Assembly: GCA_950295325.1 (NCBI GenBank)
Contig: OX485806.1
Span: forward strand, 11,840,001 to 11,904,000
Direction: 5' to 3'
Origin: Polytrichum commune
Taxonomy: Eukaryota; Streptophyta; Polytrichopsida; Polytrichales; Polytrichaceae
DNA: 64,000 nt
Shown in pieces: positions 1 to 55,790 of the stretch (positions are counted from its first letter, which is position 1; each line of letters begins with the position of its first letter). The translations under genes were made by a program, and so were the position numbers. The notes under the pieces are model-generated. The model searched no databases. It saw only the letters and a list, made by a program, of their open reading frames with translations, and was not told where the DNA came from.

Positions 1-500
1 CCTTGATTGCTTACTTGTATCATGAATTCAATTCGAATCTCACGGTATTCTTGATGTGCTCAATTGTCATTGTGCATCATTCTCTAATATATTGGTCGTA
101 ATATTTTCTATAGTGATAATCCATTCCAAGAAAATCTGGACTACAAGCAACAAACAAGTAATATGTTGAAGCATGTTGTTGGTGAGGATGACTTTGCCTT
201 ACTTGTTACTCGAAGTTATTTGTGACAAAGTACTTAGTGTTGGTGACGTGTTTGTATGTGAGTTTCTCTTTCCTACAATATTTAGGGAGGGGTGTGCTAC
301 ATTAATAGAAGCAGATGGAGTTTCATACCTAGTTATTTTCTTAAGGTGATTGGCGCATGTATGGGAGTCGACAAATATGGGAGATCCTTTCAAAAGTGGG
401 GATTTAATCCTCATTTCATGTGACATACGATTAACTAATACATAACACTATATTAAACATTTCGGGACTTTCGGGAGTCCCAAAGTGAAGATTTTTTTAC
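1..500. other. intergenic stretch, no gene seen
   Basis: No reading frame here has a recognisable domain or a convincing splice context. The DNA is AT-rich and unremarkable apart from a short TTAGTGTTGGTGACG stretch near 235-250, which resembles the ends of the TTTAGTGT miniature-element family found elsewhere in the window. Confidence 0.5.
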
Positions 501-504
501 ATTT

Positions 505-800
505 TGGGGACATGGGAACATATTTATTGCTCCCAGGAACATGCAACTAGCTTGTGGGAACGTGGGAACAATGAATTTAGACCATGTGAATGCCAGATGC
601 GCACGTGGGAACCTATGTATGGGAACGTTAAAGCGAACGCATAAACGCTCTATGGGAACATGGGAACGATATATGGGAACATGGGAACGATATATGGGAA
701 CGCTGGCAACGTTCTATGGGAACGCGGGAACGTATGTGCGCACTGTGGAACGGGGGAACAAGAAGACATTTTGTGGCTACATGGGAACGGTGTGTGGTCG
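505..800 (+). repeat. GGGAAC-rich degenerate tandem repeat
   Basis: The motif TATGGGAACATGGGAACG and shortened forms recur more than a dozen times, most regularly at 650-730. Spacing is irregular, about 7-16 bases. Reading frames crossing it on both strands encode low-complexity peptides such as repeated MGTWERY and are by-products of the repeat, not genes. It lies downstream of the 3' end of the minus-strand gene at 1.25-4.44 kb. Confidence 0.8.
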
Positions 801-1249
801 CGGCAGGGTAGTGTGGTTTGCAAACGTGATAGAAGGGGTGTTTGTGGTGTGCACAGTGACAGACCGAGGGCTCATTAATACAAGTAAACCCAAACCCACA
901 TCCAAATACAAAGGATAGACCTTGCATTACATACTTCAAAGTTCAAATTACAACACTTCACATTAGATAAATGAACCCACCCTCTATAATGCTGGTGGTT
1001 TCCATTAAGAGTTGCACGGGTACACCGTGCCCACAATGGGGTTCCATTTAGCTGCATAGTGTTGAAATCAACAAAATTTGCACCCACATGTCCGAGAGGA
1101 GCCATGATGGTCTCCCATCGAGGAACCACCCCAAAAAAATTAGTACCAATCATTGGAGTATTTGATGTGGTGTCTCACATTGTCAAGGAAATCACATCTA
1201 ATCATGAATCATTGTGTGACGACTACGATGTGGGTTTTCCAGTCTCGCA

Positions 1250-4200
1250 TTACGAGGAAGGGTTGCCCCGAGCTCCCCGTCTACCAGTTGCACGGCCACG
1301 ACCTCGAGTTCCATGTCCACCCCCTACATTTCCACGTCCACGACCTACTCGTCGCGCACTCGGCACATCAACGTCCTCCTCAACCGCCATCCCTCCGCGC
1401 TCTTGCGCAGAACAACGGCGAAGGTTGTCTTTGGCAAATTCAATCTGCTCTGGTGGAATAGTAATCTTAAGGGGCTCAACATCTTCATGTGCAGGTAGAG
1501 GCCATGCTGCCAAGATGCAGTCAATTGGTTGCCAGTCGGGGATGGAATATTTCGAATCGGCTTTCCACTTGAAGTTCGTGTTGGAGTCCCAACCATGGTA
1601 TTTCTTTGTTATGTCTCTAGCAGTTGAAGTGGGAGTGAACCATTGTACCAGAATCTGACGGGGATGGTCCCCAGTGACGTTCAAGTTTGGTGGACACAAA
1701 GCTCGGCACACCCAAATGGGTCTATCAATATCTTGATCTTGGGGTCGAAGAATGAGGAAATGCCCCTCATGCACGTTGTCGGCAATGCGGAAAGCCGGTG
1801 CAGGTCGAAGGTTAGAGGGGCCCACATAATGGTCATCTGGTTGGTGTTCCTCACGAAGTTCACCAGTACTCATGAAAGGATGTGCGTCCCTTTCGATTCG
1901 GGAGGATGGCCAGAATCCCTCCTGGAGTGCCAATCCCGCAGTGTACACATTTCTGAGGGGTGCCCGTAATGCCTCCAGTACCCCAGTCCAGTATTGTAAA
2001 AGATGTGTTTGTGAGCCCCTATATGCTCCGGTCATGTCATGGTCACATATAGATTGCCAGTAGTCAACAAACCCTTGCAACCCAACAAGAACATCGTCCA
2101 GTTTTGCCATTTCTCGAGGTTTAGCAGGGTAAGGTTCCCCAGGTGGGAAAATTGGCTCCCCCTTTATGTTGGATTTCCACATCAATATGCCATCCTTGGG
2201 CAACCATTCATCATGCGTACTAAGCACCTTGTAATGCATGACGGGCCAACCATCATCCCGTACAACAAATTTGAATTGTTGGGCTTTCGTATGGCCAATG
2301 AGTTTGTCTTGGCCATCAGGAATGTACTCACTAACAAAAGCCCTCCAATCTGGAAGCTCCTCTATCATATGTGGGATGATAGGGACCTTCTCCATGTCCA
2401 TGTATGATTTCATGAGCAAGGGGATAGTGGGGTAATCATGTTCACGCAAGTCCATACTCCATCTACCAAATGAAGCGTCAATGTCGTCATGTGTATGACC
2501 AACTAAAAGGTAAGACACGTGGACCTCTGTGAATATACCTTTGGCCGTGAGCATGGACCAAAATGCCTTCACATATCTACACTTGTTGTCCTTCCAACAA
2601 TTATCGAGTTGAACATGCAAAACGGGTGGAAGCGAGACAGCTGGAATAGGCTCACTAGGTGGAGGTCGTAATCCTGACAAACATACATCACTCCCCTGAA
2701 GAACAGCACGATAAAGCGGTGACCGACCCGCACCATGGAATAACATGCGAGATGATGAAGCCGGGGGCTGTTCCAAATCGCGAAGAAGCCTCGCAAATGA
2801 GCCCACAGTATGGTTGCAATCACCAGGATACAAATCCAATGCATAATGAGCATATCTCTCATCTCCATGGCCATGAGCCATCATGCCTGTCACGGAAAGT
2901 GGTAGTTTCGTGAACATATCAGTGTCTTTGTTCTTGTTAGCAAAGCATGGAGATGCAGTTTTGCCATGGTCCATTTTGTCGTGAATGATGGTCAAAACCT
3001 TGCGCGGATGCTCAATGGACAACGCTCTCATACAACGGTAAGCATTACGAGCGGATTCTTGCTGTGCCTGGTGCTTCTCCAACTGCTTGGAAAACCCGGT
3101 GTGTGCGGCAGAACCTTTAACATGTTGAAGAATAATAGCCATAAGTGAATCGCATTTCCCACAGCGAGCAAAATTGTCCCCTGCTCTTTTTGTCACGTAG
3201 TGCTTAAAATAATTCTGTCTTATTTGGCTCAGAGTCGAAAGAGAGATTGGTTGCAACCCACATTTGTCATTCACCTGAATATCATACCACATACAACATT
3301 TAGACAGCCACAGAAATGAGAACACCTGGATTGAGGCAATCACTAACAACACATTGAAAATGGACTAAGTGGAACATCGGGAGCCTACTAACCTGGTTGA
3401 TTGTAACTAAAAATTTCTTCCATTTTGTGCCGCGAGGCAAGACCATCTCCACTACTCGAGTACCATTAGGCAAAGTGCGGGATTTATGAGGCATCATGTC
3501 CGCTTTGTCCTCTAAGAGGTTGGAAAGAGTGGCAGTGGCTTGCTGAGTGGACACACGATACCGTTTGGTGTTCAAGTTCCCATGGTCTCGTGGTCGCACC
3601 CCACAATTGAACTCTTGTCGATTTCTGTAGAACGCGGTTTTTGAAATCACAAATATGTGCCTCCATGCGATTAGGCAAATATCACGTCCACTAAGTGTTA
3701 CCACATTCGTATGCCCCCCCGGAAGTGGATGTACTTGTCCGTGGACCTCAAGACGTTTTGCATGCCTCATCCTTGTGGAGCAATCATAAAATTCAGTTCG
3801 AAGAGCGAGAGCCTCATCTCTAGGAAAGAATCTAAGGCACTCGCGATCACAACACAAAACTGCAGATAGTTGTTGTATGCTTGCATTGGTTAGTATTTGG
3901 GATTTTTTCGTTGGCTTACGACGCTCTGGTATCCTGGATGTTTCATACGCTCTCTTCCCGTCCTTCCTTCGCTTCTCCAGCGACTTGGTTTGTGCCCGTA
4001 ATCTGTGGCCACTAACAAGGAGATGATGTGCCAGAGTGCAACCACCGTGGAAAACACGAGAGATTGGCCACGCCCTCAAAGCAAACATGGCCCCCATGTC
4101 CATCATGCCATGAATAGGCTCCATTATTAGTACACCAACGTGATCAGGTCCCAAACATTTGTCTTCCACGCAGTCAATTGGGTTTACATTACGGCAAATT

Positions 4201-4443
4201 CCTTTTGCCATATTGTGTCCATGTTCATTCACAAGCATAACATGCTTGTTCACCCAATCATCCCTACGAAGTCCACTGCAATTCGGGTCAATATCTTCAA
4301 CCGGAACAGTTTCATCTTCCGAGAATATTGCGTCGGAAAGGGATGACCCCTGCACAAACACTTCATTAGTAAAACATATTCCAACAAACAATGTGAAACA
4401 TCTTAGTTTAGAAAACCACCTCTGTGGTAGATTCCGCATCCAT
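1250..4443 (-). CDS. DUF7869-type transposase-like protein, three exons
   Basis: Predicted exons on the minus strand are 4443-4420, 4349-3393 and 3274-1250. Donors are GAG|GTGG and CAG|GTTAG; acceptors are GTGCAG|GGG and ATTCAG|GTG. All junctions are phase 0 and give about 1001 residues from ATG at 4443 to a stop at 1250. Visible motifs: cysteine pairs in LCCDREC (exon 2) and CGKC (about residues 365-368); DKMDHGK (about 426-432); LDNCWKDNK (about 550); GHTHDDID (about 586-593); and a C-terminal RG/GR-rich tail. D-x-MD, LDN and GHTH-D are the conserved acidic blocks of the plant DUF7869 family, which looks like an RNase H-fold DDE-type nuclease. Family membership comes from motif recognition and a transposase role is inference. 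There is no internal stop or frameshift, so the copy may be recent or under constraint. I saw no terminal inverted repeats around it. Confidence 0.75.
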
Positions 4444-4665
4444 GTGCTCGGCCAATCTGCACAAGAACACTTGCGCGGTCAGTGTTACAACTTAGGCCTG
4501 ATATAGCTTCACGTACCATTCGCTATTGAATCATATTAGTGCTTGTACTCGCAATCACCAAACGTTTAAACTAAAAACACAACTGTAGATATCCTAAAGA
4601 ACGAAAACTTCATCCTGTATTATCTGCCTTGTGACCTCACTAGATATCACCTATATCACCTGTTA

Positions 4666-4759
4666 CAATATGTCGTGTATGTGGCGCGGGCATGCATCCC
4701 ACTTTCACTCGATCGAGTGAAAGTGGGATGCATGCCCGCGCCACATACACGACATATTG
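4666..4759. repeat. 94-bp perfect palindrome
   Basis: Bases 4666-4712 are the exact reverse complement of 4713-4759. The centre is the 20-base core TTTCACTCGATCGAGTGAAA at 4703-4722. The arms carry GTGGCGCGGGCATGCATCCC and its complement. No spacer separates the arms, so the single strand could form one uninterrupted 47-bp stem. Perfect palindromes of this size are normally unstable in replicating DNA, so this copy is either young or an artefact. Confidence 0.95.
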
Positions 4760-4960
4760 GGCCCTTCATGCCTTTTCTTTTCTCAGAAAATCCGGTCATA
4801 AATAGATGTTACCCAATCTATCCCACCCGATTAACACCTACCTCCCTCTATACATATTATTTGTGTCGATAATAAAAACGTCGATCACCAAACAATCACA
4901 TCCTCTCCCCAGAAACTAATCACATCCTCATCCCCAAACAATCACATGTTCATCCCCATG

Positions 4961-5108
4961 CAATCGACTCGCCAGCCCACTTTCACTCGATCGAGTGAAA
5001 GTGGTGGGCCTGCCAGCGCCGCGCCACAAAACTTTCACTCGATCGAGTGAAAGTGGGCTGGCGAGTCGATTGCAGGCCCACCACTTTCACTCGATCGAGT
5101 GAAAGTGT
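4961..5108. repeat. palindrome cluster 1 (three 20-base cores with interlocked inverted flanks)
   Basis: Cores lie at 4981-5000, 5033-5052 and 5085-5104. Bases 4961-5002 (left flank plus core A) recur as exact reverse complement at 5031-5072 (core B plus right flank). The right flank of core A (GGTGGGCCTGC) recurs as reverse complement immediately left of core C. The right flanks of A and C are also near-identical direct copies (TGGGCCTSCCAGCGCCG). Flanks have thus been copied in inverted orientation across the palindromic core more than once. Confidence 0.95.
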
Positions 5109-5120
5109 TGGGCCTCCCAG

Positions 5121-5242
5121 CGCCGGTTGTTCGGGCCGTACTGTACGGACTGCAGGGATGGGTACAGGGCCCCGCAAATATGGTGCCGCTGCAATGCTCC
5201 ATGCATATGGAACGGCACATTGAACAGCGCCTCTTCGATCAG
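5121..5242 (+). CDS. exon-like fragment containing AVLYGL, related to the end of the 14-16 kb gene
   Basis: Between a possible acceptor (CTCCCAG|CGCC, 5118-5120) and donor (CAG|GTGTTT after 5242) one frame is open and reads RAVLYGLQGWVQGP followed by ANMVPLQCSMHMERH and IEQRLFDQ. The stretch GGCCGTACTGTACGGACTGC is shared base for base with 16190 onward, where the same frame also gives AVLYGL, and in both places it lies just downstream of a palindrome array. I do not recognise the domain. It could be one exon of a second, decayed copy of the ParB-like gene; no ParB-like exon remains upstream here. The reading is inference from splice signals and the shared peptide. Confidence 0.4.
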
Positions 5243-5590
5243 GTGTTTCTTGTTGTGTAGGACCGAACCTTGTGAAATTGATCCCTGGAAGGGATAGAAA
5301 GAAGAATGTTGTGGTGTTGTGCTCCCTGGCACAAAGGGCGACAAAAGAGGGTTCGAGTGTGCTCCTTCCAGGCTTATATAGTCGGGTGTAGCAGAATTGG
5401 TGGGAGAATAGTGCCCTAATCCAATTTTGAAGGTTCCCTCCCTTTCGTTTTAGGCCGTCACAGATCCGTATGCGGACGGCTTTTGATGCCTTTGGGTGGG
5501 TTTTTACATGCACCTTGATACAATTGTGTTAGTGGGATTGTTTTGCATTATTTTCGGCATGATGTGTTTAAGCCAATCCGGTCCACCCCC

Positions 5591-5726
5591 AATCCTGTAA
5601 TGATAGTTAGCACATCGCCCACTCTTGGGCATCACTACTATGAGCGCGTACTACCCGCTGGTACGCCTTTGGATCCAAGTTTGATTGATGAGATGAAAAC
5701 ACGCCAGAATGTGGTCCTATCAACAG
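5591..5726 (+). CDS. possible exon, unrecognised
   Basis: An open stretch reads NPVMIVSTSPTLGHHYYERV then LPAGTPLDPSLIDEMKTRQN and VVLSTG, ending at a possible donor CAACAG|GTACCC. Base composition is richer in GC than the flanks. I recognise no family. It lies 350 bases downstream of the AVLYGL fragment on the same strand and might belong to the same decayed gene. A chance open frame is equally possible. Confidence 0.22.
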
Positions 5727-6167
5727 GTACCCTCAGCCCACCACTTCCATCGCACTTGTGGCATCACACCCTGCTATTGAGGCGCGTACAACGTTGAGGT
5801 ACTCACAAGCGCTCATTGTCGTTGCAACCTACATTTGTGCACCGGCTTCAAGGTTGAAGATATTTGCACCCCTAGACCTTGAATCTCTTGAAAAGAAATG
5901 GATGTCCCCAACATGTCATAACAATTACAATTAAATCATCGGCCCTCATCCCAACGTATCTATGTATGCTTGTAGTATTGCAGATAAATTGCCATGCTCC
6001 CAATGCTATCGGAGTGGTTTATGGCACCCCGATGAGTTCTCCTTCCGAAATTCATATTAACTATTTCAATATTAATCCAAAATTAATTATTATGTGGGTG
6101 GGTCCAATTTCCAATTACAATGTGCTTTGCACATCTCTCAACATTGACATAATGTCTTAATAACTTC

Positions 6168-6353
6168 CCAAGAGGTTAGTAACTTCCCAACTTCCCAATA
6201 GAGGTTACTAGTAACTTCCCAATAGAGATTAATAACTTCCCAATAGAGGTTAGTAACTTCCCAATAGAGATTAGTAACTTCCCAATAGAGGTTAGTAACT
6301 TCCCAATAGAGATTAGTAACTTCCCAACAGAGGTTAGTAACTTCCCAATAGAA
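6168..6353 (+). repeat. 21-bp minisatellite (TAGTAACTTCCCAATAGAGR)
   Basis: About nine tandem units of TTAGTAACTTCCCAATAGAG, alternating between AGGTTAG and AGATTAG forms, fill this stretch. A minus-strand reading frame through it repeats EVTNLYW and is a product of the repeat. Confidence 0.9.
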
Positions 6354-6610
6354 GCAAATTAGGAAGGGGCTTATTAACCCCATTATAGTAACCCCATTGG
6401 GCTTATGGGGTTCAACAATTCATAAATTAAATTGGAAGAATTTGAAATTTGCGCCTCCAACTTCATCTGAGGATGCCGTCTCGAATTGACCCTAGACCCT
6501 TCTACCCTATTTAACAATTAGTCCAATACCCTAAATGAAAGGTGAAAAGTGCATGTGTGGGTTAATATTAGTGAAGATTGAGTAGCCTCTGGAGGCCCAT
6601 CAGCCTACTT

Positions 6611-6638
6611 AAACCCTAAACCCTAAACCCTAAACCCT
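6611..6638 (-). repeat. interstitial telomere-type repeat (AAACCCT)4
   Basis: Four exact AAACCCT units occur in tandem. This is the plant-type telomere heptamer in an internal position. Confidence 0.95.
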
Positions 6639-6639
6639 A

Positions 6640-7880
6640 TACTCGAAGTACCACTTTGGTTTGCATTTGAAGCAAATAATGAATGGGCTACCATGATACA
6701 AAACCAATCCCAAATATATTTGATATTCATATTAAGTGCTATGTCTGAATCGGTTGCTTCCACCATTGGTCACACTTTTTACATTATTTTGTTAGGTCCA
6801 ATAGCTAAGTCATAGTCTAAGAACTCTAAAATGATTTGAATCAGCTGATCAAACTAGTCAATTTAAAGCGTTGTCTACATTTGAGCACGTCGTAAGTTAA
6901 TCTCATCCTAACACGTGTTCATTTAGTGTTCCCTCATAACTGCACGTATTACAAGCATACAACTCTTGGACAATTGATCTGCGTTAGTGACAAATATAGG
7001 TGTTTAATTAAGAAGCGCGAACATAAGGCCCTCAAACCTTAATCACCATGTGTCCAAGTGTCTTCGTGGCAATAATGCATCCAAATAAATGCATGGCTTG
7101 GACCCTGTAGGAAGCAGTTACAACACTGGCCATTCCCGCAAATTCCTGTGAGCATGCCACGTGTCACATATCTTCACATCATGTCTTCAAAAGTTCACGC
7201 CCAAGCAGTTGCTCTTGCAATGGTCGGAGTCAATTGTTGAAAGTGCCTATATTGTTCGTAATTGGGAGTTCACCCATTGGATCTCCCCTTTATGACCTCT
7301 CCACTTTCCTTCCATCCACACTCATAACCTTAGTACGTGTAATTAGGTTGCCTTCGCAAATGGGTAAAGTTGTGTTGCCTCTTACATCGCCTCTTTACGC
7401 AAGCAACTTTCCATAGGTCAAACTCGGATCAAAAACCTTATATTAAGTTTTTTGGTTCATTCCTATCACAATTAAAGTCCATACAAAATTTGTGTATTTT
7501 GTTGTACTGGTAATAAATAATCAAGTAATGTGACATGCCAATAGATTAGTGCAAGACTACCTAATTGCCAATATTGGTGTAGGTAGATTCATTGGCATTT
7601 ATTTGAGCTACTAGTCTAAGAGACAAATTGAATCCAAACTTAAGTTAGAGTTAGAGCAAACCAAGAGCTACCTCAATTGATGGAAACAGGGATTTGAGTA
7701 TATTTGGATTATGCATTAATTTTGGACAACACAACTGCCTAGTAGTATATGGCGTGCACTAGATTGGAAAACTACATGAAATTAATATAATGGTGGTTGG
7801 CAAATATGGCATACATTGTCAAACATTTGAAGTTGTCACTGATTGTTGTGTTGTCACTCCCACTCCAGTGCGCAATAATT
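6640..7880. other. gene-free stretch
   Basis: Only short reading frames are present, none with a recognisable motif or strong splice context. The sequence is AT-rich and mostly unique, and I see no structure beyond ordinary A/T runs. Confidence 0.4.
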
Positions 7881-7888
7881 GTGAACTT

Positions 7889-7913
7889 TTTAGGGTTTAG
7901 GGTTTAGGGTTTG
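7889..7913 (+). repeat. interstitial telomere-type repeat (TTTAGGG)3
   Basis: Three exact TTTAGGG units are followed by a degenerate TTTGGGG. The orientation is opposite to the copy at 6.6 kb. Confidence 0.92.
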
Positions 7914-8408
7914 GGGTTTATGGGTTAAGTTATTTAGTGGGCTCCAATCTGCCTTTGAAATCCAATGAGCTCAGTTATGTGCAAAATGCAAGGGTGGCCA
8001 TTACGAATGGAACGGTCATTTGAAGCTCCAATGTGGTGTTTTGAAAAATGGGGTAACGTTATGGTCACTAACCTTTCACCATTTAAACTAGTGATCAATC
8101 TTGGGTCAAGTAACATAGTGACATTTCAAACATATTGGCATAAATATGCTTACAATTCAACCTACAAGCCTCAACCCTCCATCCTAAACATGCACTCTAA
8201 AAACTAAAACTCTATGCCTGAACCCCAAGTTCTAAACGTTACCCCTAGACAATGAGTTTAATATCTAGCCGACGTTGAATGAATCATATCATCGTGACGA
8301 AGGCCACAAACCTATGCATTGGGGAGTCAAGTGTTCCACATGTTGATGGATGAGAGTAAACTTGTCAAAGCATAATTATTATACCCATAAGAAGTTTACA
8401 CATTTGGT

Positions 8409-8655
8409 ATGACACTAGTCGTATAACTAGTGTTAGACATAAATGCGCCACCACCCTCCCTACGACCATGCACCTTCTCTTATCTTTGTTAAGAAATTTT
8501 CACATCCTTACTAACACTAAATTTGGGCATGTGACTTACCATAGTCCAAGTTTAGTGTTTGAGTTCACAATGAATGTTACTTACTTTCATCTAGGGTTAC
8601 TAATATTTAGTGTATGCGTTCGTATTTTGTGTATCTAACACTAAATATCACTAGA
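8409..8655 (+). mobile_element. TTTAGTGT-family miniature element, copy related to 59.2 kb
   Basis: This stretch aligns by eye along its length with 59220-59465. Shared landmarks in order are TAGTGTTAGACATAAATG, a TTCACATCCTTACTAACA block, TTACTTACTTTCAT and ATATTTAGTGTATGCGTTCG (ACGCGTTCG in the other copy), then CACTAAATATC. The left part seen at 59.14-59.22 kb is missing or decayed here. Confidence 0.7.
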
Positions 8656-8674
8656 GTGGGTTGGGACATATATG

Positions 8675-8830
8675 CACCACTATAGTTAACTAATCATTAA
8701 TAGGTCAATGATCATGCACAAATAATATCATCGTGAACTAAACCTTAAAGGTCAGCAATCATGCACCACTATAGTTAACTAATCATTAATAGGTTAGTGA
8801 TCAAGCACCACTATAGTTAACTAGGTTCTG
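8675..8830 (+). repeat. short tandem copies of CACTATAGTTAACTAATCATTAAT
   Basis: The block CACCACTATAGTTAACTA plus ATCATTAATAGGT and TGATCA occurs twice in full and once in part. ACTATAGTTAACTA is also the subrepeat of the larger elements at 10.09-10.77 and 32.55-33.13 kb. Confidence 0.8.
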
Positions 8831-9594
8831 AGAGGATTGTTTATTGCGCACCACTATTCACCACTTAGTGTAGTTAGTGGCGTTGTAGTTGCCACTATTA
8901 TTTAGTGGTAGAAGGTCTCGAATACTTGCCAGCAGATTGCCTACTAGTAGGCTTATGAAAGTGCACAATATTAATATCGGATGGAGGGCTAACCCTTGCG
9001 ACACCCACTTTCACCATATGTTATAATCAACACAACAATAACATAACATCTGTTATGTTATTATAACCAACAGACAACCTTAAAGTTTACCACCTTGCAA
9101 TAAAGAAGTTCAACCCAAGTTAACTTATGCGTAGTACAATGAACACACGACATCCTTACACCGTCGCGTAGGCCTAAGGTATAGACACCCATAACCGATA
9201 ACGCACCCATCACCGACAAGTAGACCTATGCATGAACGCGCATGGCTTAAATTAGCAGAAGTCGATGTTTTTATATTATAAACGTGAGGACCATATGACT
9301 TCGTGGAGGGGAAGTTGTCGAAATAGTTGTTGTCGGTCATGGGTGAAGCTATATGTTGGTTATGGACTCTAACCAACTTTCATGTTTGCAAAATTTGTAG
9401 TAATTCTAACTTTACTTAATCAATTTTGAAAAAAAGCTCGACATTCATCATGGACATTATTTTCCTACGCAGAAAAATTAACTCCTTCTTGATAACCGAA
9501 GATATGCTATGCTGAAATTCTTAAGTTATCGGTTATAGGTATAATATGTACCTTAACTTAAATTTAGGGGAAATCTAGATATATTTAAAGATCC
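8830..9594. other. gene-free stretch
   Basis: No coding signal is visible. The sequence holds TTAGTGTAGTTAGTGG near 8871 and the palindrome-like AACATAACATCTGTTATGTTAT at 9040-9060, both resembling fragments of small inverted-repeat elements. Confidence 0.35.
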
Positions 9595-9780
9595 TACTAC
9601 AGGCCACCGGTCCCTCTATAAATGTCCGTGAAGGATAGAAGATTTCAAGAGTGATTTAGATTGTGAATTTCTTACATCTTTCTACTACTGCTTTCTTGTT
9701 GTCCTCGAGATTATCATTGATACATTCTATTAACCTTGATAATGTCACCCTTGGTAATAGAACACCTTAAAGTTTGAAAC
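9595..9780 (+). promoter_or_regulatory. TATA-like promoter or LTR fragment
   Basis: CCTCTATAAATG near 9613-9624 sits upstream of a pyrimidine-rich stretch with TTTCTACTACTGCTTTC and CTTGTTGTCCTCGAG, the layout of a plant retrotransposon LTR promoter and start region. No second LTR, primer-binding site or pol remnant was found nearby, so a chance TATA box is possible. Confidence 0.22.
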
Positions 9781-10091
9781 CGATTTTCTTAGTGTAAAAC
9801 TCCCTTGTTATTATCCCTATCATCCTAGACAATGCCACTATCCAAAATCCAAAATACATCCAAAATACTCCAAAATACTCGAAAATCCGTAGTGTGAACG
9901 TTATAATATCAATTATGGATGGATTGTATGTGATGGTTGGATGGACAGATTGTAATAGCCAAAAGGGTCATGAGCCGCCCCCTGTGATAATGCAATGCTA
10001 TTCACATGGTCATGAGCCGCCCATGTGCACCAACTTTGAACGGTGTTGTCTATACACGGCACTCAAAGGTGTTGTATGGGACGGCACTGTC

Positions 10092-10771
10092 AAGACTTCA
10101 GACCTTAAACAACTGCCAAAATAACTAGAGTTAACTAGAGTTTTTTCAAGACATTAGAAAACAACTATAGTTAACTAGGAAATTTTCAAACCAATTTGAA
10201 GAACAACTATAGTTAACTAGAAATATTTAAGACCATATTAAAAAACAACTATAGTTAACTAGAAAAAAATTCAACCAACTACAACTTGAGAGTTCCAAAA
10301 AATGTAAGGAGTCAACCAACAAGTTATTTCATTTTTGAATTAACGTATATTACATAACTTCTATAATAGACCTTATGTTTGTCACCCATGAAGGCCCATC
10401 CCAAGAAGGACTAGAACCCATTATACTCTAAGTAACTTAGACATAATGAAGTCATCATCATGATGCTCATTGGGTGTTGATTGAGTGCGGATCACAACTG
10501 GAATCAAGTCCCAAATTTAAATTTTGAATAAAAGAGAAGGAAAATATATAGATGCTATGATCTGTCATGGTACTACACTACAGGTTGTGCCCAACTTTAG
10601 TTAACTAGATATAACTATAGTTAACTAGATTTTTTGGCATACCAAAATCAAAACAACTATAGTTAACTACATTTTTTGGCAGGTCAAATCACAAACAACT
10701 ATAGTTACGAAAGGCAACTAGTTAACTGATAGTTGAATTAGTTGGTTAGTTGTCCAAGGTCTGCAAGACTT
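10092..10771. mobile_element. ACTATAGTTAAC miniature inverted-repeat element, copy 1
   Basis: The ends are imperfect inverted repeats of about 23 bases: AAGACTTCAGACCTTAAACA at the left against the complement of the right end, AAGTCTTGCAGACCTTGGAC. Inside, AACTATAGTTAACTAG recurs about eight times in two clusters (10.13-10.27 and 10.60-10.73 kb). The element matches 32546-33133 in opposite orientation, including the motif TGTAGTTAACTATAG beside TTTTTTGGCAGGTCAAATC. No protein is encoded. Confidence 0.8.
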
Positions 10772-12135
10772 CTCGGCCTCTAATATGCATCCCACCTTCC
10801 GTCACATGTGTTCACCTAATATGTGTCTATGAGGGTTTCGGCTTGTGTGAAGTAATTTGGGATGTTAGTTAAGTTCTACGGTTAGGTGAGCTGGTCTAGG
10901 TACAGAGTAAGTGTCGACTTAAGCTAAATTAGTTCAATTGGTTTGCAGTGCAGGTGTTATTCGTTGTGTTGTTGTTTTTGTTGTTGTTGCTACATTGGAA
11001 GCTAGTGATTCCATGGAAGAAGACCCATTGATTGTTGATAGCAGTCACTGTGATGACGAGTCTAAAGTAGTATAGCTAAGCGATCATGCACAAAAATATG
11101 CTAAAGATGTTTTGAATTTTATGGTTAGCCAAGGTTTTCAGATTTTCAACACCCAGGAGTTGTTAGGAATGGAAAAAATCCATAACAAACTCATTAGAAT
11201 TGGTGTTGGACAATAAACATCACTAAAACAATGTGACATTAGAAGCTCCTTTGTCTCTAGTGAGAGGTCTTTACCTGGTCTCAATGACAGATTATGATGT
11301 GCTCTTGCTGTTATTCACAATTTTGAATTAGAGTTTACATGTAAAAACATTGAAGTCTTGTATTTGTTATTTTCTTTTTTTACATTGAAATTTTATTTTG
11401 ATTGTCTACCTATTTTTTTTGATAATATCACATTATGCACAAATCTTCAGAATGTGACATTATCAAATATGACACCTTCAATGCTTATATCACACTTTAT
11501 GGTGAAACGGATGCTGTGATATTATCAAGGTTAGACTGTACCAATATGTTGAAATGTCAGTACCGTTTCAATATACTCAAACATCAATGTTTCATTATTG
11601 AAATTATTATTCTATCTTTTCACCATGTGTGTTCTTTAAGTTTGGTCTCACTTATATTATAATAGTATTGAACATCGCTTAAATGATAAACATGATAATG
11701 TGCACTTTGAACAAAAATTTCAATACATACATGAAGGGCAATTTTTGAGCTAACCCTTCATTTTGAAAGGGAAAATTTTAAGTTACCCTTCCTTATGAAA
11801 TACAAGCAACCCTTCAAATTTATTCCCTGACACTAAACACCATAAACAATGTAACAATACTTATTGAATGCAGGGCCTAGTAAACAAATTAAACTTTTTA
11901 GGTTTGATCACCCCACCTTATTTTTCACTCGGAAATTAAACTCAAGGTTTTGATGATGATTTCAAGACAAAATTGCTCAGAAAAGAAATATTTGGACTAC
12001 AAGGGAGCGCTAAATTGTCGTCCAAAGTATTCCAATGTGCTACTCTCACTGTCATAATGTAGATTTTTCAATTAATATTTTTGCTTAAACATGTTACTTA
12101 TGTTGATGAATTGTATCATATGGGCAATTAGTAGG
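10772..12135. other. gene-free stretch
   Basis: No recognisable gene. Short open frames at 11.43-11.66 kb have no motif. TGACACTAAACACCATAAAC near 11828 is a fragment of the repeat shared by 12.14 and 52.76 kb. Confidence 0.35.
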
Positions 12136-12139
12136 CTAG

Positions 12140-12240
12140 CCTTGACACTTTGAGACCCCGCCGGCATCTAGTTTAGGCCCTTCGCACATTGTGCACTTGA
12201 CACTAAACATCATAAACGGTGTAGTACCTTCTTACATGTG
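12140..12240 (+). repeat. dispersed repeat shared with 52.76-52.85 kb
   Basis: The landmarks CTTGACACTTTG, GGCATCTAGTTTAGGCC and GACACTAA...ATRAACRRTG occur in the same order and spacing at 52757-52850. The copies are direct and perhaps 80% alike by eye. Confidence 0.7.
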
Positions 12241-12659
12241 GTGAAATATATATGTATATGAATATGTATGTGTATATGTATAATTTTTGAGCTGCATATA
12301 TATAGGTCCATTCAACTGAATCGTTTTTGAGAGTAGAGATTATCAACGTTTCAATACATAGTACACTCTTTTAAACGTGTCTTCTTGATGTTTGCTCTTT
12401 GATCCTCACTGAACCCCATACCATTCAAATATAGGGGTTTCGGTTTATGTACCAGCCAAGCGGTGGCGGTGGCCGTATCATATCTAAATTGAACCATTGT
12501 GATGGAATCAAGCCATTTGGACGAAAGCTCATTTGGTAAGTTAAGTGAATCATAAGTGAAAGCACCGACTAACATCATACAGTTTGCAATCAATACCCTC
12601 TACAGTTAGTAGGAAGTACCCTTCCTACTAACCCACACCCTCCTTAATGAGAACGGGTG

Positions 12660-12968
12660 AAACTACACCCTAGCCTACTCGTCCGCCCATCATGGTCCGG
12701 CGTCTAGGATCTGGGCCGTCCATTATTGACGGCACAATCCTGACCATCGGCACTTGGGCGAAGGGACGTGGCCGTTCCCAATCTTGGGTCCAGAATGACC
12801 TCCCCCGCTCAACACTTTCATTGTGTTTTCTCCTCTTCGATCCTAGTGTTTTCTCCTCTTGGTTCTTCCGTTGCAATATTGTGCACCCTCTCCCTCTCCG
12901 CACCCGGCTCCAAGTGTATTATGCATTTGCCTTCGTCTATGCTCCTTGCTTCATTGAAATTGCTGATC
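12660..12968 (+). promoter_or_regulatory. GC-richer stretch, possible leader of the ParB-like gene
   Basis: This block has markedly higher GC than its surroundings and CT-rich runs (CTCCCTCTCCGCACCC) like those ahead of the PAS gene at 59.8 kb. It lies 1.5 kb upstream of the exon at 14450 on the same strand. A promoter or non-coding first exon is plausible. No ATG-initiated protein here is convincing. Confidence 0.25.
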
Positions 12969-13155
12969 TAGTATGCACCTTGCACCTTGCTTCACTGCCA
13001 TCCGGTTGATCTCTTCTAGTATGCACCTTGTTTCATTGAAATCTGGTTGATATCTTGTAGTATGCACCTGGTTCACTCCAATCTGGTTGATATCTTGTAG
13101 TATGCACCTGGTTCACTCCAATGTGGTTGAGCTCTGCCTCTAGTATGCACATTGC
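12969..13155 (+). repeat. 40-48-bp minisatellite (AGTATGCACCTGGTTCACTC)
   Basis: The start AGTATGCACCT or a close variant occurs near 12970, 13018, 13059, 13099 and 13142, each followed by TTCA...CCAATCTGGTTGATATCTT. The units at 13059 and 13099 are almost identical. Confidence 0.85.
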
Positions 13156-13976
13156 TCAACAATCTGCATCTTCCTTTTTTCAATTCACAATCTGCATCAT
13201 ATCTCCCTTTTCGCACATTCCTCCACCCTCCTGAAGTGCCATCCACACCTGGGATCCACTCAGTATATCACAAAAAGCATCCTGGTTATGTTTATTTCAT
13301 TGAATGCATTTTGCTTGACGTTTTTCTATACATTAGGCACCCTGAATTCTTATTAAGAAATCTTCTTTTGTTTGTTCCATCTCCATGGATTCGGGATGTT
13401 CACCCTGATACTCTTGATTTCTAAAGAGTATGCACCTGGAGCCTCCAAGTGTATTAAGTCAATTTTCGTGTTCCACATTGTTTGTTTGCTATGCTTCATT
13501 GAAATCTTCACCCCCAGCATCCTAAATTTGTTCAGTGCAATCGGCATCTTGAATTTTCCTTCGATATGCTCACTTTTTGAGGTATTTACAACTGGAACCT
13601 AATCACATTCTGGTTTTTCTTTTTCAATCCAGGCCCCTGAATCCTTGCAGCATAAGCATTCAGATTAGCCATATTCCTGTACACAATATTAAATAACCTC
13701 CATCTTGATCCATGTAGCAAGACATGGTATTGGTTTCTACAGTAATCAGAACTTATGTAAAATCCCCACTCCTGCTCTTATTGTTGATTCCAAGTGAAGG
13801 TCGTGCAAGCAGAGACTGAGTAGCAAATATACATCCATACTCTTCACACATCAGGTACACTTCCCGGCTTGCATTGAATGTCAAAGACATAGAAATAAGA
13901 AGTATATTTCAAGATATAGTGGTGGGAAATATCCCCGTTCACACCTGACTGTACGGACACTCTTCAGGGTTGGAGG

Positions 13977-14380
13977 CGCTGGGCCACTTTCACTCGATCG
14001 AGTGAAAGTGGCCCAGCGTTGGCGTGCTGGCTGCCTGAGCCATGGCTGGCCACTGGCCACTTTCACTCGATCGAGTGAAAGTGGCCCAGCGCTGGCGTGC
14101 TGGCTGCCTGAGCCATGGCTGGCCACTGGCCACTTTCACTCGATCGAGTGAAAGTGGCCCAGCGCTGGCGTGCTGGCTGCCTGAGAGCCATGGCTGGCCA
14201 CTGGCCACTTTCACTCGATCGAGTGAAAGTGGCCCAGCGCTGGCGTGCTGGCTGCCTGAGAGCCATGGCTGGCCACGGTCCACTTTCACTCGATCGAGTG
14301 AAAGTGGACCAGCGCTCGCGTGCTGACTGCCTGCTTGTGCCATGGACAACCATGGCTCACTTTCACTCGATCGAGTGAAA
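13977..14380. repeat. palindrome array 2 (six 20-base cores, about 75-bp period)
   Basis: Cores TTTCACTCGATCGAGTGAAA lie at 13988-14007, 14061-14080, 14134-14153, 14209-14228, 14284-14303 and 14361-14380, with steps of 73, 73, 75, 75 and 77 bases. The linker is conserved: GTGGCCCAGCGCTGGCGTGC, then TGGCTGCCTGAG, then CCATGGCTGGCCACTGGCCA. The palindrome extends into the flanks; around the first core it spans about 42 bases, CGCTGGGCCAC to its complement. Because the unit is open in several frames, both strands show long reading frames of repeated SLDRVKV, FTRSSES or FHSIE; these are artefacts. The array ends 69 bases before the predicted splice acceptor of the ParB-like exon. Confidence 0.97.
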
Positions 14381-14449
14381 GCATTAATGTTGAGTTGAGT
14401 GATGCATTAATGTGGCTTGAAGATTAACTTATTTCACATACCATTGCAG

Positions 14450-16219
14450 GAGGCATGGACAAAGTTGTTTTCTGGACAGATATAGTTGGAGTCAAACAAA
14501 CAGGACCAACTGCTCAATGGGTAATTAGAGACTCTCATTTGCAGAAGTGGTCGCTGGCCATTAACAAGAGAAACAAATCTTCAGGGTACGAGCTTATATT
14601 TACGTACAAGGTAAACAATAGTTGGATTCCGAACCCTGGAAATCCAATTACCATCGCTCATGTGGGAGCGAGGGACAGGCTAGAGGTTTCGGTTATGGAG
14701 GGGGTGGAAGAGAGAATTTTATCAATTGATTGCAAGAAGCATACATTTCTCTTGGTGCCATTTTATGAGTCCATGGCCTCATTCCCTTCGAAGGAGAAGG
14801 AAGAGATAGAGAAGGTGATGTCATCTGGAATATCCAAAAGAGCCATAAACTTTGTGTTGGAGACACTGGAAGACATCAACAGTAGAGAGGCAGCTACACG
14901 GGAAGAATCAAGGCAGCAAAAGAAGAAGCAAGCCGAGGTTATACTGAAATCCAAGGCCGATGAAGGTGGCAGCTCTATTGGACAACAGCCGAAGGCAAAG
15001 AAGGGGAAAAAACCTGAAGAGCTAACCGCATCACTGGAGACGGAGAGAAGGAAGCCTCACGAGGTGGTGCCCCACGTTTCTACAGATTCTCAGAACACGG
15101 AGAGGGATGCTGGGGATGCCGGGAGTGGAAGGAAAAAGAAAGCAAAGAGGGCTTTGTCACCCGAGAAGAAATCAAAGCAAAAGAAAATGAAGCCCGACGT
15201 TGTTATGCATGAGGAAACCCCACTGGTCTTGACTCAAGCGGAGAAGGGTCGAGTTATATCGCAAGGTCAACAACCCAGCCTTGAGGAAGCTGCTCTGGAT
15301 AGGAAGAAGTTTTTGCAACTTTTTGGGCACATTTATCCATTCGGCGCAGAATCGATATTCCGTGTACCCATCAAACAAATGAAGGGCGCAAAAGCTTATC
15401 AAGTTACGCGGCCTTTGGATCCAAGTGGGGTGAACCTCATGAAGAACTACCTTATCCAAACCCCGCCTGCTTGGCCTCAGCACAATCTGTGTTTGATGCC
15501 GAAGTTCAAGAAAGGTGAGACATGGCGAGAAGGCATGACATGGGATGACATCAAGAACATGCAATTCGCCATAATCAATGGGCAACATACTGTAGCCGCA
15601 TCTACGGAAATAATTGCTCATCGAGATACCGATCCGAAGCTCAAGGAGAAGTTAAAGGTGTGGCCCTGCACAATTGTGTGGACAGAGGATCCGAGCATGA
15701 CCGTCAGGCTTTCATATACATTGAACAATTCGAACTCGTTCAACAAGTTCACACCGACATGGACTACACAAATTCTGTATTGTCGCAGGGTTTGGGTGAA
15801 GTTGAACAAGCCCGAAAAGCAGCGTGCGAACGCCTCTGAGGCTACACAGGACCCTGAGAAAACATTGGCTTGGAAGGTATGTTACTCTGCTCCCTTAATT
15901 CATCAGACCTCAAGTGTTGACATGACCTCACACCACTTTCACTCGATCGAGTGAAAGTGGTGAGGCGCACCTAAAGTGTTGACATGGCCTCACACCACTT
16001 TCACTCGATCGAGTGAAAGTGGTGAGGCGCACCTCAAGTGTTGACATGGCCTCACACCACTTTCACTCGATCGAGTGAAAGTGGTGAGGCGCACCTAAAG
16101 TGTTGATCATGCAGGCATTGTAAACCATTGTATCCTAAACCAATGTATCCTATATCCATGATGTGCAGAACTTTACTACCAGCATGGAGGCCGTACTGTA
16201 CGGACTGCATGTGTCATAG
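14450..16219 (+). CDS. lysine-rich protein with a DGQHR/ParB-like motif
   Basis: The main exon runs from acceptor TTGCAG|GAGG (14449/14450) to donor TGGAAG|GTATGT (15876/15877), with ATG at 14455 giving 474 residues. A second exon from GTGCAG|AAC at 16169 keeps phase 0 and ends NFTTSMEAVLYGLHVS at a stop, 16217-16219. Residues 1-130 are an unrecognised globular region. Residues 150-260 are rich in K, E, R and Q with basic clusters (KKKAKR, KSKQKKMK) suited to nuclear entry. Residues 300-440 contain FRVPIKQM, VTRPLDPSGV and INGQHTVAAS (NGQH at 375-378), which resemble the DGQHR/ParB-N fold of ParB, sulfiredoxin and DndB-type proteins. The ParB DNA-binding helix-turn-helix was not seen. Both flanks hold arrays of one palindrome. 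Upstream coding exons may exist. Without splicing, the frame would run into the palindromes and end HHFHSIE. Confidence 0.6.
15925..16100. repeat. palindrome array 3 (three 20-base cores, 62-bp period)
   Basis: Cores lie at 15937-15956, 15999-16018 and 16061-16080, spaced exactly 62 bases. The unit is the core plus GTGGTGAGGCGCACCTAAAG and TGTTGACATGGCCTCACACC. The linker differs completely from array 2, but the core is identical. The array is inside the predicted intron 15877-16168. Confidence 0.97.
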
Positions 16220-24730: not shown

Positions 24731-26810
24731 GTGGGTGGGTGTTGAAAGGGGAGGGAAGATGAAAGATCCATCCATGTAGTATATATGTGGAACGTAGGGT
24801 GTTGTTATGAAGAAGTGTGACTCTCTTGTTTAATATGTGAGGGGGCATGAGTGTTCAATGGAAATAATAAGGGTTTGACTATTCAATTAAAGCTATAAGA
24901 GGGCATGAATGTTCAATCAAAAACATGTACGGATGTAAAATTTGAAATGTGTGATATGGGAAGGTTTTAGAATAGCTTATACTATGAAGATGAATGACAC
25001 TCCTATTTGATTTAAAAGGGGGCACAACATGATTGTTTGGTTTAGAATGTCAAGGGTTATGATTGATTAGTTGAAAGCACAAGAGGGAACAACTAATCAA
25101 ATGAAAAATATGAAGGGGTGCAATTGTAAGATTTTAAGCAATGAGTACACTTGTACACTGGAATGATGTATACATTATGGAAATCTCATCATGAAATTTG
25201 TTTCTTGTGGGGTTTCCATTCTTAACCCCTAAAAGTTGAGAAGGAGTTTTTTTTAATTTAATTTTATTAGGCAATGACCTCGTGGGTCCATCCCAACATA
25301 CACATTTATTTTCCAATCTTTTGAACTAAGGCACATGAACAACTTAACTTTTTAACAAACATATCATTCATACAGTCATCCCCATCCTTAGAAGTACATT
25401 TTGTATATATTAAGTTGTTGAATTGGGATGAACATTTTCAAACAATTTTGGGGAGATTTGGGCTTTGGCCTTTAAAATTTCACCACCAATCTTGTCAAAT
25501 ACTACTCAAATACATGTGTGTAATGAAGACAAGTAACCACACAAGGCCCACATACCTTACAAACTACTACTATACTTTCAAATATGAGTGGATGGCTACA
25601 CAATTCATGGTAAAAATTGTGGGCGTACTTAGAGTGTGACTTACCCTTTGATGCAATATAGTATGGCCCACCATATACACCATCATGCATTAAAGTAGTC
25701 ATCATGCATTTAAAGTAGTGTGGAAGGTCCTTATCCTTGGGATAATTGTTTTTGCATCAATCTCTAAACACACCCCATCCTACCCAAGCAACTTTGATGG
25801 AAGTTACATGTCTATGATTTTGTGAAATACCATAATTTATGGGAAATGCACATTTTAAATTTCAATTGACGAGCGTTTTCGAAAATAAATCGAATATTCG
25901 AATCTTGGACTTGAAACCGCTAAGGCAAGTTACATATGAAACAGATTCCACTTTGTTGGAAACCTTTCAAATACAATCTATTGTGAACCTTTGATGTCAT
26001 ATATTGTGAGTCGGTGTGTCTTCTTACTTATTTAATGCAATAATACACTATCTCCAGTAAATCTCAATCCAATGTTACAGTTACTATCATATTGAAAGTA
26101 AGTATTGTAGATATTTAAGAAACTTTAGAGGAAGTATTGTTACTCACACTACATTTAGTGAATGCAAGTTGTGGTCCTTTAGGGGGTTAAATTTTGACTG
26201 GTGTTTGGAGTATGTGCCCAACACACTACACATTGAAGGACTCGGGAGCAACTTTCACTACTAGTTACACTAAACAATCCTATTATTGTGGCCCACGCTA
26301 ATTCTCAACCCACCCTGAAATTATAGTAGAAAAATAGTGTGGGTCACATTAATTTTCTAGAAAATGAACGCGGGTGATTATTTATTTGTACTAACCTTTG
26401 TCCTGTAACTAACATTCAATCTGTTGGTCAAAAGTCTTCAATGAAGACTTAGGAGAAGGCCCACCTTGACTAAAAAAAAGTAGTGTGACCCATGCTAATT
26501 TTCCACGCACACTAGTAGGACTAGTTAGTATTGCTAGGATGCATGCAGTTTGTGCTTACAATGCAAAAGAAAATATCATGCACCTAGGTAGACATACGTT
26601 CAACTAAAGACACCTCACCCACCTACCATGCGGTCATATAAGTTAAGGTTCAAGTCCACTTTGTGCAGCTATAGAGTAGGATGCGGCTGCTTGACACCGC
26701 CCCTCCCTCCTCATTGGCATAATTTAACCGAAACCCGAGCATGCGTACCTTGCTTTCTTGCTTGCTTCTTTCCACACTTCCCAACCTCATCTAAGCTAAG
26801 CTATGCACTA
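24731..26810. other. gene-free stretch
   Basis: No recognisable coding region or RNA gene. TACTCACACTACATTTAGTG near 26141 is a fragment of the TTTAGTGT element family. The rest is AT-rich single-copy-looking DNA. Confidence 0.35.
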
Positions 26811-26814
26811 CTAG

Positions 26815-27700
26815 TCTACTACTACTACTTAAAAGCTTCCTAGCTAATTTAGGTCCTAAGTGGTAGCCGTTCGTAACTCAGACCTCGAGAAGATTGGTTT
26901 CTCTCAATCGAGGAGGAGCAATTAAGATTTGGCGCAACTTCACTCATCTAATTAAGGTAAGTTATCTTCTACTACTACTACTTAAAAGCTTCCTAGCTAA
27001 TTTAGGTCCTAAGTGGTAGCCGCTCGTAACTCGGACCTCGAGAAGCTTGGTTTTTTTCAAATGAGAAGGAGTGATTAAGATTTGGCGCCACTTCACTCAT
27101 CTAAGCTAAGCTATCTTCGACTACTACTACTTAAAAGCTTCCTAGCTAATTTAGGTCGTAAGTGGTAACCGTTCATAACTCGGACCTCGAGAAGCTTGGT
27201 TTTTTTCAAATGAGAAGGAGCGATTAAGATTTGGCGCCACTTCACTCATCTAAGCTAAGCTATCTTCGACTACTACTACTACTTAAAAGCTTCCTAGCTA
27301 ATTTAGGTCCTAAGTGGTAGCCGTTCATAACTCGGACCTCAAGAAGCTTAGTTTTTCTCAATCGAGGAGGAGCAATTAAGGTTTGGTGCCACTTCACTCA
27401 TCTTAGCTAAGCAATCTAGCTTCTACTACTACTTAAAAGCTTCCTAGCTAATTTAGGTCCTAAGTGGTAGCCGTTCATAACTCGGGCCTCAAGAAGCTTA
27501 GTTTTTCTCAATCGAGGAGGAGCAATTAAGGTTTGGTGCCACTTCACTCATCTAAGCTAAGCAATCTAGCTTCTACTACTACTTAAAAGCTTCATAGCTA
27601 ATTTAGGTCCTAAGTGGTAGCCGTTCGTAACTCGGGCCTCGAGAAGATTGGTTTGTCTCAAACGAGAAGGAGCGATTACGATTTGGCGCCACTTCACTCT
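26815..27700 (+). repeat. 150-bp satellite, six tandem units
   Basis: TTAAAAGCTTCCTAGCTAAT begins units at about 26829, 26982, 27131, 27283, 27433 and 27583, steps of 149-153 bases. Each unit continues with TTAGGTCCTAAGTGGTAGCC, CTCGRRCCTCGAGAAG, a TTTTTCAAATGAGAAGGAGC stretch and TTGGCGCCACTTCACTCATC. A CTACTACTAC run of varying length separates units. Similarity among units is high (roughly 90% by eye). Confidence 0.95.
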
Positions 27701-32545: not shown

Positions 32546-33133
32546 AGTCACACTAATGCAAACCTTGGATAACTCACTGACTAATTCAACTATTAGTTAA
32601 CTAGTCGCCTTTCATAACTATAGTTGTTCATGATTTGACCTGCCAAAAAATGTAGTTAACTATAGTTTTTTTAAATTCAATCTGCCAAAAACTTTAGTTA
32701 ACTATAGTTATAAATAATTAACTAAATATCTAGTTAGCTAAAGTTGAGCACAACATGTTCATGAAATTCTATTGTAATGTTGTAGTGTCACTAGTGTGTT
32801 ATTTGTGTTGGTGGTGTACATGGAGATTGTTCCAGAGCCCAACATTGTGACGTATAACATTGAGCCCAATCTATTGTAATGATCGTATAAAGGCATTTCT
32901 TAATGATCCTCAATGGCATGAGCATATTAAAGACCCTCAATTGAAGCAAATCAAGAGGCAAAGTTCTTCAAATATATAATAATACTTGGAAATCTTCTAG
33001 TTAACTATAGTTGGTCTTCAAATCGGTTTGAATTTTTTCTAGTTAACTATAGTTGTTCCCTAAAACAAACTGAAAAAAATATAGTTGACTATAGTTATTT
33101 TGGTAATTCTGCAAGGTCTACACTATTGTGACT
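32546..33133. mobile_element. ACTATAGTTAAC miniature inverted-repeat element, copy 2
   Basis: The termini AGTCACACTAATGCAAACCT and, inverted, AGTCACAATAGTGTAGACCT are imperfect inverted repeats. TAGTTAACTATAGTT recurs about six times in two clusters. The whole is a reverse-oriented relative of 10092-10771, but the outer 10 bases differ from that copy. Confidence 0.8.
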
Positions 33134-55464: not shown

Positions 55465-55790
55465 TCCCTAGCCTCGCATGGCAATATCAATAAGTACACA
55501 ACAAGGTACACCATGGCTAGAAGCCTTGCTCTTTGAGTCACCATGTCTCCTTCCCCCCTTCTTCCCAAATAAAAGAATGAATCCCAACCCTAGCTTCACA
55601 TGGTATTGCTAATAAGTACACAACAAGGTACACCATGGCTAGAAGCCTTGCTCTTTGAGTCACCATGTCTCCTTCCCCCCTTCTTCCCAAATAAAAGAAC
55701 GAATCCCAACCCTAGCTTCACATGGTATTGCTAATAAGTACACAACAAGGCACACCATGGCTAGATGTCTTGTTCTTTAAACCCCCCCTT
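55465..55790 (+). repeat. 122-bp direct tandem duplication
   Basis: TAAGTACACAACAAGGYACA then CCATGGCTAGAAGCC occurs at 55492, 55613 and 55735, steps of about 122 bases. The unit includes ATGAATCCCAACCCTAGCTT, CACATGGTATTGCTAATAAG and CACCATGTCTCCTTCCCCCC. The first two full units are almost identical. Diverged single copies lie near 56045 and 57055. Confidence 0.9.

Follow-up and report, generated by a model that had tools for sequence, protein, structure and literature searches.

A 20-bp palindrome arrayed in noncoding DNA of a moss transposon is a candidate recognition site for an element-encoded protein

We analysed a 64,000-nucleotide stretch of the genome of the moss Polytrichum commune (GenBank assembly GCA_950295325.1, contig OX485806.1, positions 11,840,001–11,904,000), here called the window. 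It contains a right-truncated copy of a DNA transposon that carries a predicted transposase gene, a second gene and three arrays (sites A, B and C) of one palindromic 20-mer, TTTCACTCGATCGAGTGAAA, which we call the core. The features that bear on the core are listed below, with positions numbered within the window (TIR, terminal inverted repeat; ORF, open reading frame). The copy belongs to subfamily A of the element, and subfamilies B and C are described further on.

444..16190, plus strand: right-truncated copy of the ~23 kb TIR DNA transposon, subfamily A, aligning at ~99% with two copies on contig C1
444..470, plus strand: left TIR AACACTATATTAAACATTTCGGGACTT, 27 bp, exact match
1250..3352, minus strand: transposase ORF with a DUF7869 domain (PF25273, Pfam E 4.8e-40)
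3300..4349, minus strand: putative upstream exon region of the transposase, with predicted limits, resembling N-terminal parts of homologues
4350–4355, minus strand: 3' splice site GTGCAG, conserved with its flank in subfamily B
4666..4759, no strand: perfect 94-bp palindrome around the first core
4703..5104, no strand: site A, an array of 4 cores flanked by the transposase promoter and the first exon identified
5136..5148, no strand: second small palindrome CCGTACTGTACGG adjoining site A, also found beside site A in subfamily B
5374..5380, minus strand: TATA-box-like TATATAA, conserved in subfamily B
13988..14380, no strand: site B, 6 cores, directly 5' of a splice site and start codon
14447–14449: 3' splice site, followed by the start codon of the second gene at 14455
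14455..15876, plus strand: first coding exon of the second gene, 474 codons, with the motif IINGQHTVAAS
15877..16168, plus strand: putative intron holding site C, with GT...AG at exon borders common to homologues
15937..16080, no strand: site C, 3 cores

A first-pass annotation of the window had located 13 exact cores and none elsewhere; all 13 were found at their positions, and no further match appeared in the window even at up to three mismatches, nor did 100 shuffles give one. Its linker lengths of about 52, 75 and 62 bases also held, with cores spaced by 52 bases in the first array, 73–77 in the second and 62 in the third, and with linkers unrelated between arrays. The two loci it described do form two clusters, which resolve into three arrays. 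Every core (13 of 13) lies at the middle of a perfect palindrome that extends further, to 22–94 bp, in which the first 1–3 added base pairs (CAC/GTG) are mostly common to the cores and the outer arm sequence is specific to the array. The 20 kb upstream of the window contained no core.

The genome comprises 408 Mb, and seven large contigs (C1–C7) hold almost the whole of it. A search of the whole assembly, as the first-pass annotation had proposed, returned 236 exact cores, 287 matches at up to one mismatch and 435 at up to three, compared with 0, 0 and 16 for a reversed-sequence control, so that the claim that the core is always exact applies within the window and not across the genome. Nearly all exact cores (228 of 236) map within 18 copies of a single transposon, which were covered wholly or at the relevant places and which also hold 26 of the 51 single-mismatch variants found genome-wide. 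In L085 and L086, two further half copies, the 6 kb read of each contained no core. The arrays are real, and neither chance nor an artefact: an adapter or assembly origin, raised as a possible objection at the outset, is ruled out by the 18 copies at separate chromosomal places and by target duplications at 15 of 16 TIR pairs. We found no description of the core, or of two shorter forms of it, in the open-access literature searched.

Full-length subfamily A copies lie at C1:63187271-63210330 and C1:72368938-72392715. These continue to ~23 kb, whereas the window copy stops at about 16190, and no right TIR was found in the window. A genome search with the 27-bp TIR gave 133 ends at up to three mismatches, against none in the control, and only one of the 32 ends read carries a mismatch. 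An exact 4-bp target duplication flanks 15 of the 16 TIR pairs whose flanks were read; the remaining pair, at C6:4957769, lacks a duplication and includes two right ends. A possible further pair at C2:63495227, whose left end has two mismatches and whose inner sequence differs, was left out of this count. Because of its TIRs and target duplications, the element is a DNA transposon that moved recently. The first-pass annotation had offered a mobile junction sequence as one of two explanations for the core; in that wording this part is not supported, since what moves is the 23-kb transposon around the cores, which ends in another repeat, of 27 bp, and every core in the copies measured is 4.1 kb or more away from it. 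In the window, the two C1 copies and the C2 copies, the outermost cores lie 4.1–6.0 kb from the left end and 6.5–6.8 kb from the right end.

The DUF7869 protein is, judging from its context, probably the transposase; its nearest named relatives among the matches listed are homologues in the mosses Ceratodon and Physcomitrium. The Pfam search that identified it returned only DUF7869 and one sub-threshold zinc-ribbon match, and nothing Mutator-like. We found nothing linking DUF7869 with transposition in the open-access literature searched, nor anything on DUF7869 in the accessible part of PMC12730594. The gene is under purifying selection, with a ratio of nonsynonymous to synonymous divergence (dN/dS) of 0.06 (0.056) between subfamilies A and C and 0.17 between A and B.

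In the copies that could be read through, the cores are confined to the three noncoding sites, and none lies in any identified exon (window, two C1 copies and C2 stretches). In the transposase gene, site A separates the promoter from the first exon identified. Several translated homologues show a comparable splice signal, which suggests that the second gene has a 5' intron; this intron would hold site B. The small palindrome CCGTACTGTACGG that adjoins site A recurs beside site B in degenerate form (13944–13956, two mismatches), and the site A version, with ~21 bp of shared context, stands exactly at the truncation junction of the window copy (16191–16203). For the second gene itself, no Pfam match above chance was found.

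Among 14 copies of subfamily A, site B ranges from 3 to 15 cores and site C from 1 to 5. The 1425-bp exon between these two sites shows 0–4 base differences from the window in 10 of 12 other copies (C3:57108219 was left out of this comparison), and in two of those 10 the sole change creates a stop codon; the remaining two differ by 6 and by 16 bases, plus a 3-base insertion. Arms are homogenised within arrays and differ between them. They also change in a compensatory manner, GGCCAC/GTGGCC having become GGTCCAC/GTGGACC, and one-sided intermediates occur. One array on C2 has a 40-base linker in both orientations (40/40 and 36–37/40 matches), and in L060 an arm-core-linker-core-arm arrangement replaces the 94-bp palindrome of other copies. 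Arm homogenisation and spacer inversion are the outcomes reported for template switching between inverted repeats in the accessible text of PMC8604942. Together, the homogenised arms and inverted linker point to template switching as the process that drives mutation of the arrays. The cases described there, as far as that text goes, involve various short inverted repeats, whereas a single 20-mer acts as the pivot here.

Such traces invite a reading in which the core has no binding function and is a recombinogenic micro-palindrome that perpetuates itself through template switching in tolerant noncoding DNA. A polymerase changing templates at the self-complementary 20-mer would copy one arm onto the other and would invert and duplicate linkers. 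The array-specific arms of 22–94 bp, the compensatory arm change with its one-sided intermediates and the rearrangements in the C2 array and L060 all fit this reading well. It also accords with a symmetrically altered form of the core, described below, which demonstrates that symmetric change does arise over longer times. If template correction were the whole explanation, symmetric mutants should also spread within subfamilies, and none of the 26 single-mismatch variants in the 18 copies is self-complementary.

Comparison with subfamily B, represented by the C2:23.2 Mb copies, C3:34852603 and C7:5195544, shows the core kept at equivalent sites while the linkers have been replaced. At site A, the promoter and splice-site flanks of the window's subfamily and of a C2 copy align at 82–85%, and between them the linkers cannot be aligned whereas the core can. 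The kilobase read at C3:34852603 contained no site A core. Synonymous divergence (dS) between A and B is 0.15 in the second-gene exon (dN 0.04) and 0.06 in the transposase. The C2 locus includes a large inverted duplication (C2:23255166-23289398, L015–L018) that holds two left halves of the subfamily B element.

A deeper comparison is provided by a half copy at C2:50161225, which has an identical TIR and represents a third subfamily, C. Its transposase shares 88.6% protein identity with that of subfamily A over the 403 residues read, at dS 1.24 and dN 0.069. At 4.2–5.1 kb from the TIR, matching site A in offset, the half copy has 13 units that match a sister palindrome, ATCCACTCGATCGAGTGGAT, in which two of the three outer base pairs are changed, symmetrically; 11 of the 13 are spaced 51–52 bp apart. 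The inner 14 bp, CACTCGATCGAGTG, are exact in 7 of the 13 units. By our own arithmetic, the chance of retaining 14 bases neutrally at dS 1.24 is about 2e-6, or ~1e-3 when one arm is counted. This sister palindrome is the strongest evidence that we have, and it suggests that the letters of the core matter beyond their symmetry. The persistence of the inner 14 bp, like the identical letters at identical places despite replaced linkers, is left unexplained by a palindrome that merely perpetuates itself, and we regard that explanation as rather doubtful.

We give about an even chance that a dimeric protein, encoded by the element, recognises the palindrome and through it controls the element's genes. 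In these terms the first-pass annotation's other explanation, a protein recognition site, is the better-supported half of its alternative, given the fixed noncoding sites, the survival of the core through linker replacement and the symmetric sister at an equal offset. Its view that the repeats do not follow ordinary satellite turnover needs qualification: the arrays do expand, contract and invert, and what sets them apart is that the core outlives this turnover. By position and conservation, the gene starting at 14455 would be the best candidate for the binder.

We infer the binding protein, its binding and any anti-silencing effect from this arrangement, and the mechanism would run as follows. 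A dimeric, sequence-specific protein, most likely encoded by the transposon, would bind the palindrome, and the bound arrays may keep the control regions of the transposase and of the second gene open, whether by blocking methylation by the host or through transcriptional activation, as VANC does for VANDAL elements. Template switching at the self-complementary cores would make the arrays grow, shrink and re-sort; the core itself would be held constant by selection for binding as linkers turn over, and protein and motif would drift jointly between subfamilies.

VANDAL21 and VANDAL6 of Arabidopsis provide the closest parallel. According to the accessible portions of PMC5735166 and PMC10398659, VANC21 binds arrays of YAGTATTAY in noncoding DNA, which lie upstream of VANA21 and within introns of both VANB21 and VANC21; such arrays are gained and lost rapidly, and related VANDALs use other motifs. 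As far as those portions show, the shared layout consists of short motif arrays upstream of one gene and in introns of others, and the systems also have in common a variable copy number, a motif concentrated in the element and a motif that differs between related families (here, in the one subfamily C copy). VANDAL elements are Mutator-like (MULE), whereas the element described here has a DUF7869 transposase, a 27-bp TIR and a 4-bp target duplication, and their motif is a non-palindromic 9-mer rather than a 20-bp palindrome. Pfam and Protein Data Bank (PDB) searches of the second gene identified no relative of VANC; VANC sequences themselves were not part of the comparison. The element works in a VANDAL-like way in layout, turnover and motif divergence, and is not a VANDAL. 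Judged by titles and abstract openings, none of the open-access papers listed on anti-silencing, transposons, moss and VANDAL describes such an element.

Several observations weigh against recognition by an element-encoded protein. Taken alone, conservation of the core between A and B is weak evidence, at a dS of 0.06–0.15. Both subfamily B copies compared in exon 1 of the second gene lack 10 bases there, and four stops interrupt exon 2 of the C2 copy, so the A–B comparison includes time without function; the broken gene in the B copies examined shows that arrays can outlast it. The dN/dS of the second-gene exon (14455–15879), about 0.25 against subfamily B copies that are themselves frame-broken, is only suggestive, given the stops and frame breaks in copies. 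Neither protein offers an obvious binding domain: the second gene gave no above-chance match in the PDB or to known DNA-binding domains, and the transposase none to a known DNA-binding domain or solved structure. Subfamily C is a single copy, partly read and on the transposase side only, 4 of its 13 units show the sister 20-mer in full, and recombination between subfamilies may possibly have swapped cores. In one copy, one-sided variants such as TTTCACTCTATCGAGTGAAA have multiplied, so some mutated cores are tolerated. Finally, 148 unplaced genome matches at 2–3 mismatches (control, 16), compared with 51 at one mismatch, are not what simple decay predicts; further sister palindromes may be among them.

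The sites might instead serve a host transcription factor or the transposase as an enhancer, autoregulatory or silencer array with no anti-silencing role. Site A does lie downstream of the conserved TATA-like box, and sites B and C lie in or beside introns of the second gene. A related arrangement is known from Spm/En, likewise a plant DNA transposon with a repeated motif touching its promoter, whose TnpA reportedly recognises repeated 12-mers and controls its own promoter. TnpA sites are not long palindromes, and they lie in subterminal positions, as transposase-binding repeats generally do, whereas in the copies measured every core stands at least 4.1 kb from either end. The motif has also shifted symmetrically between subfamilies, which would be expected of an element protein that co-evolves with it more than of an unchanging host factor, and we consider regulation of this kind unlikely.

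The arrays could also act as hairpins in RNA, folding in transcripts and affecting splicing or small-RNA production. The site C intron (15880–16166 folded) is far stabler than its shuffles (z −8.6). Any inverted repeat would serve this purpose, which leaves fixed letters under changing arms unexplained and makes a role in RNA very improbable.

Other sources were rejected. Neither the core nor relatives of the second gene's two exons were found in viral contigs, which speaks against a phage or virus. The core shares the TTTCAC/GTGAAA half-sites of parS, with 8 extra bases between them here, and the GQH motif of the second gene is reminiscent of ParB, a relationship that the searches did not bear out. 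Sequence comparison of 31 homologues gave no ParB match at E up to 10, a tblastn search of phages with P0131 gave only matches at E 7–10, and the 20-mer has seven bacterial or archaeal matches, each a single copy in an unrelated genome, so a bacterial parS-like element was set aside. A DNA methyltransferase, which an FGGLKP motif in exon 2 had brought to mind, found no support in Pfam, NCBIfam or PDB.

The full element also has an ORF with a NIF-type phosphatase domain (L007:6164-7012, Pfam 7.7e-10), perhaps a captured host gene. Tandem repeats of ~42 bp with AACTATAGTTAACTA-like palindromes occur inside the transposon at 8672–8823, 10118–10266 and 10593–10707, and a similar repeat lies outside it at 32615–32709. 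Long tandem repeats at 26796–27699 (150/302-bp units) and 55489–55778 (122-bp units) showed no relation to the cores.

VANC arrays are the well-studied case of a transposon that evades silencing through sequence-specific recognition of itself. We suggest tentatively, as something possible rather than probable, that the moss element represents a second, independently evolved anti-silencing (self-licensing) system, which would combine the large protein of a DUF7869 element, a co-diversifying palindrome and template switching at hairpins. If so, the same array logic in an unrelated element would make it a repeatable evolutionary solution. The pair of palindromes, set apart by a symmetric change at two base pairs and present in elements of one genome with few candidate binders, offers a clean test of this idea, and the arrays provide a natural record of how palindromes form, homogenise and invert over short evolutionary times.

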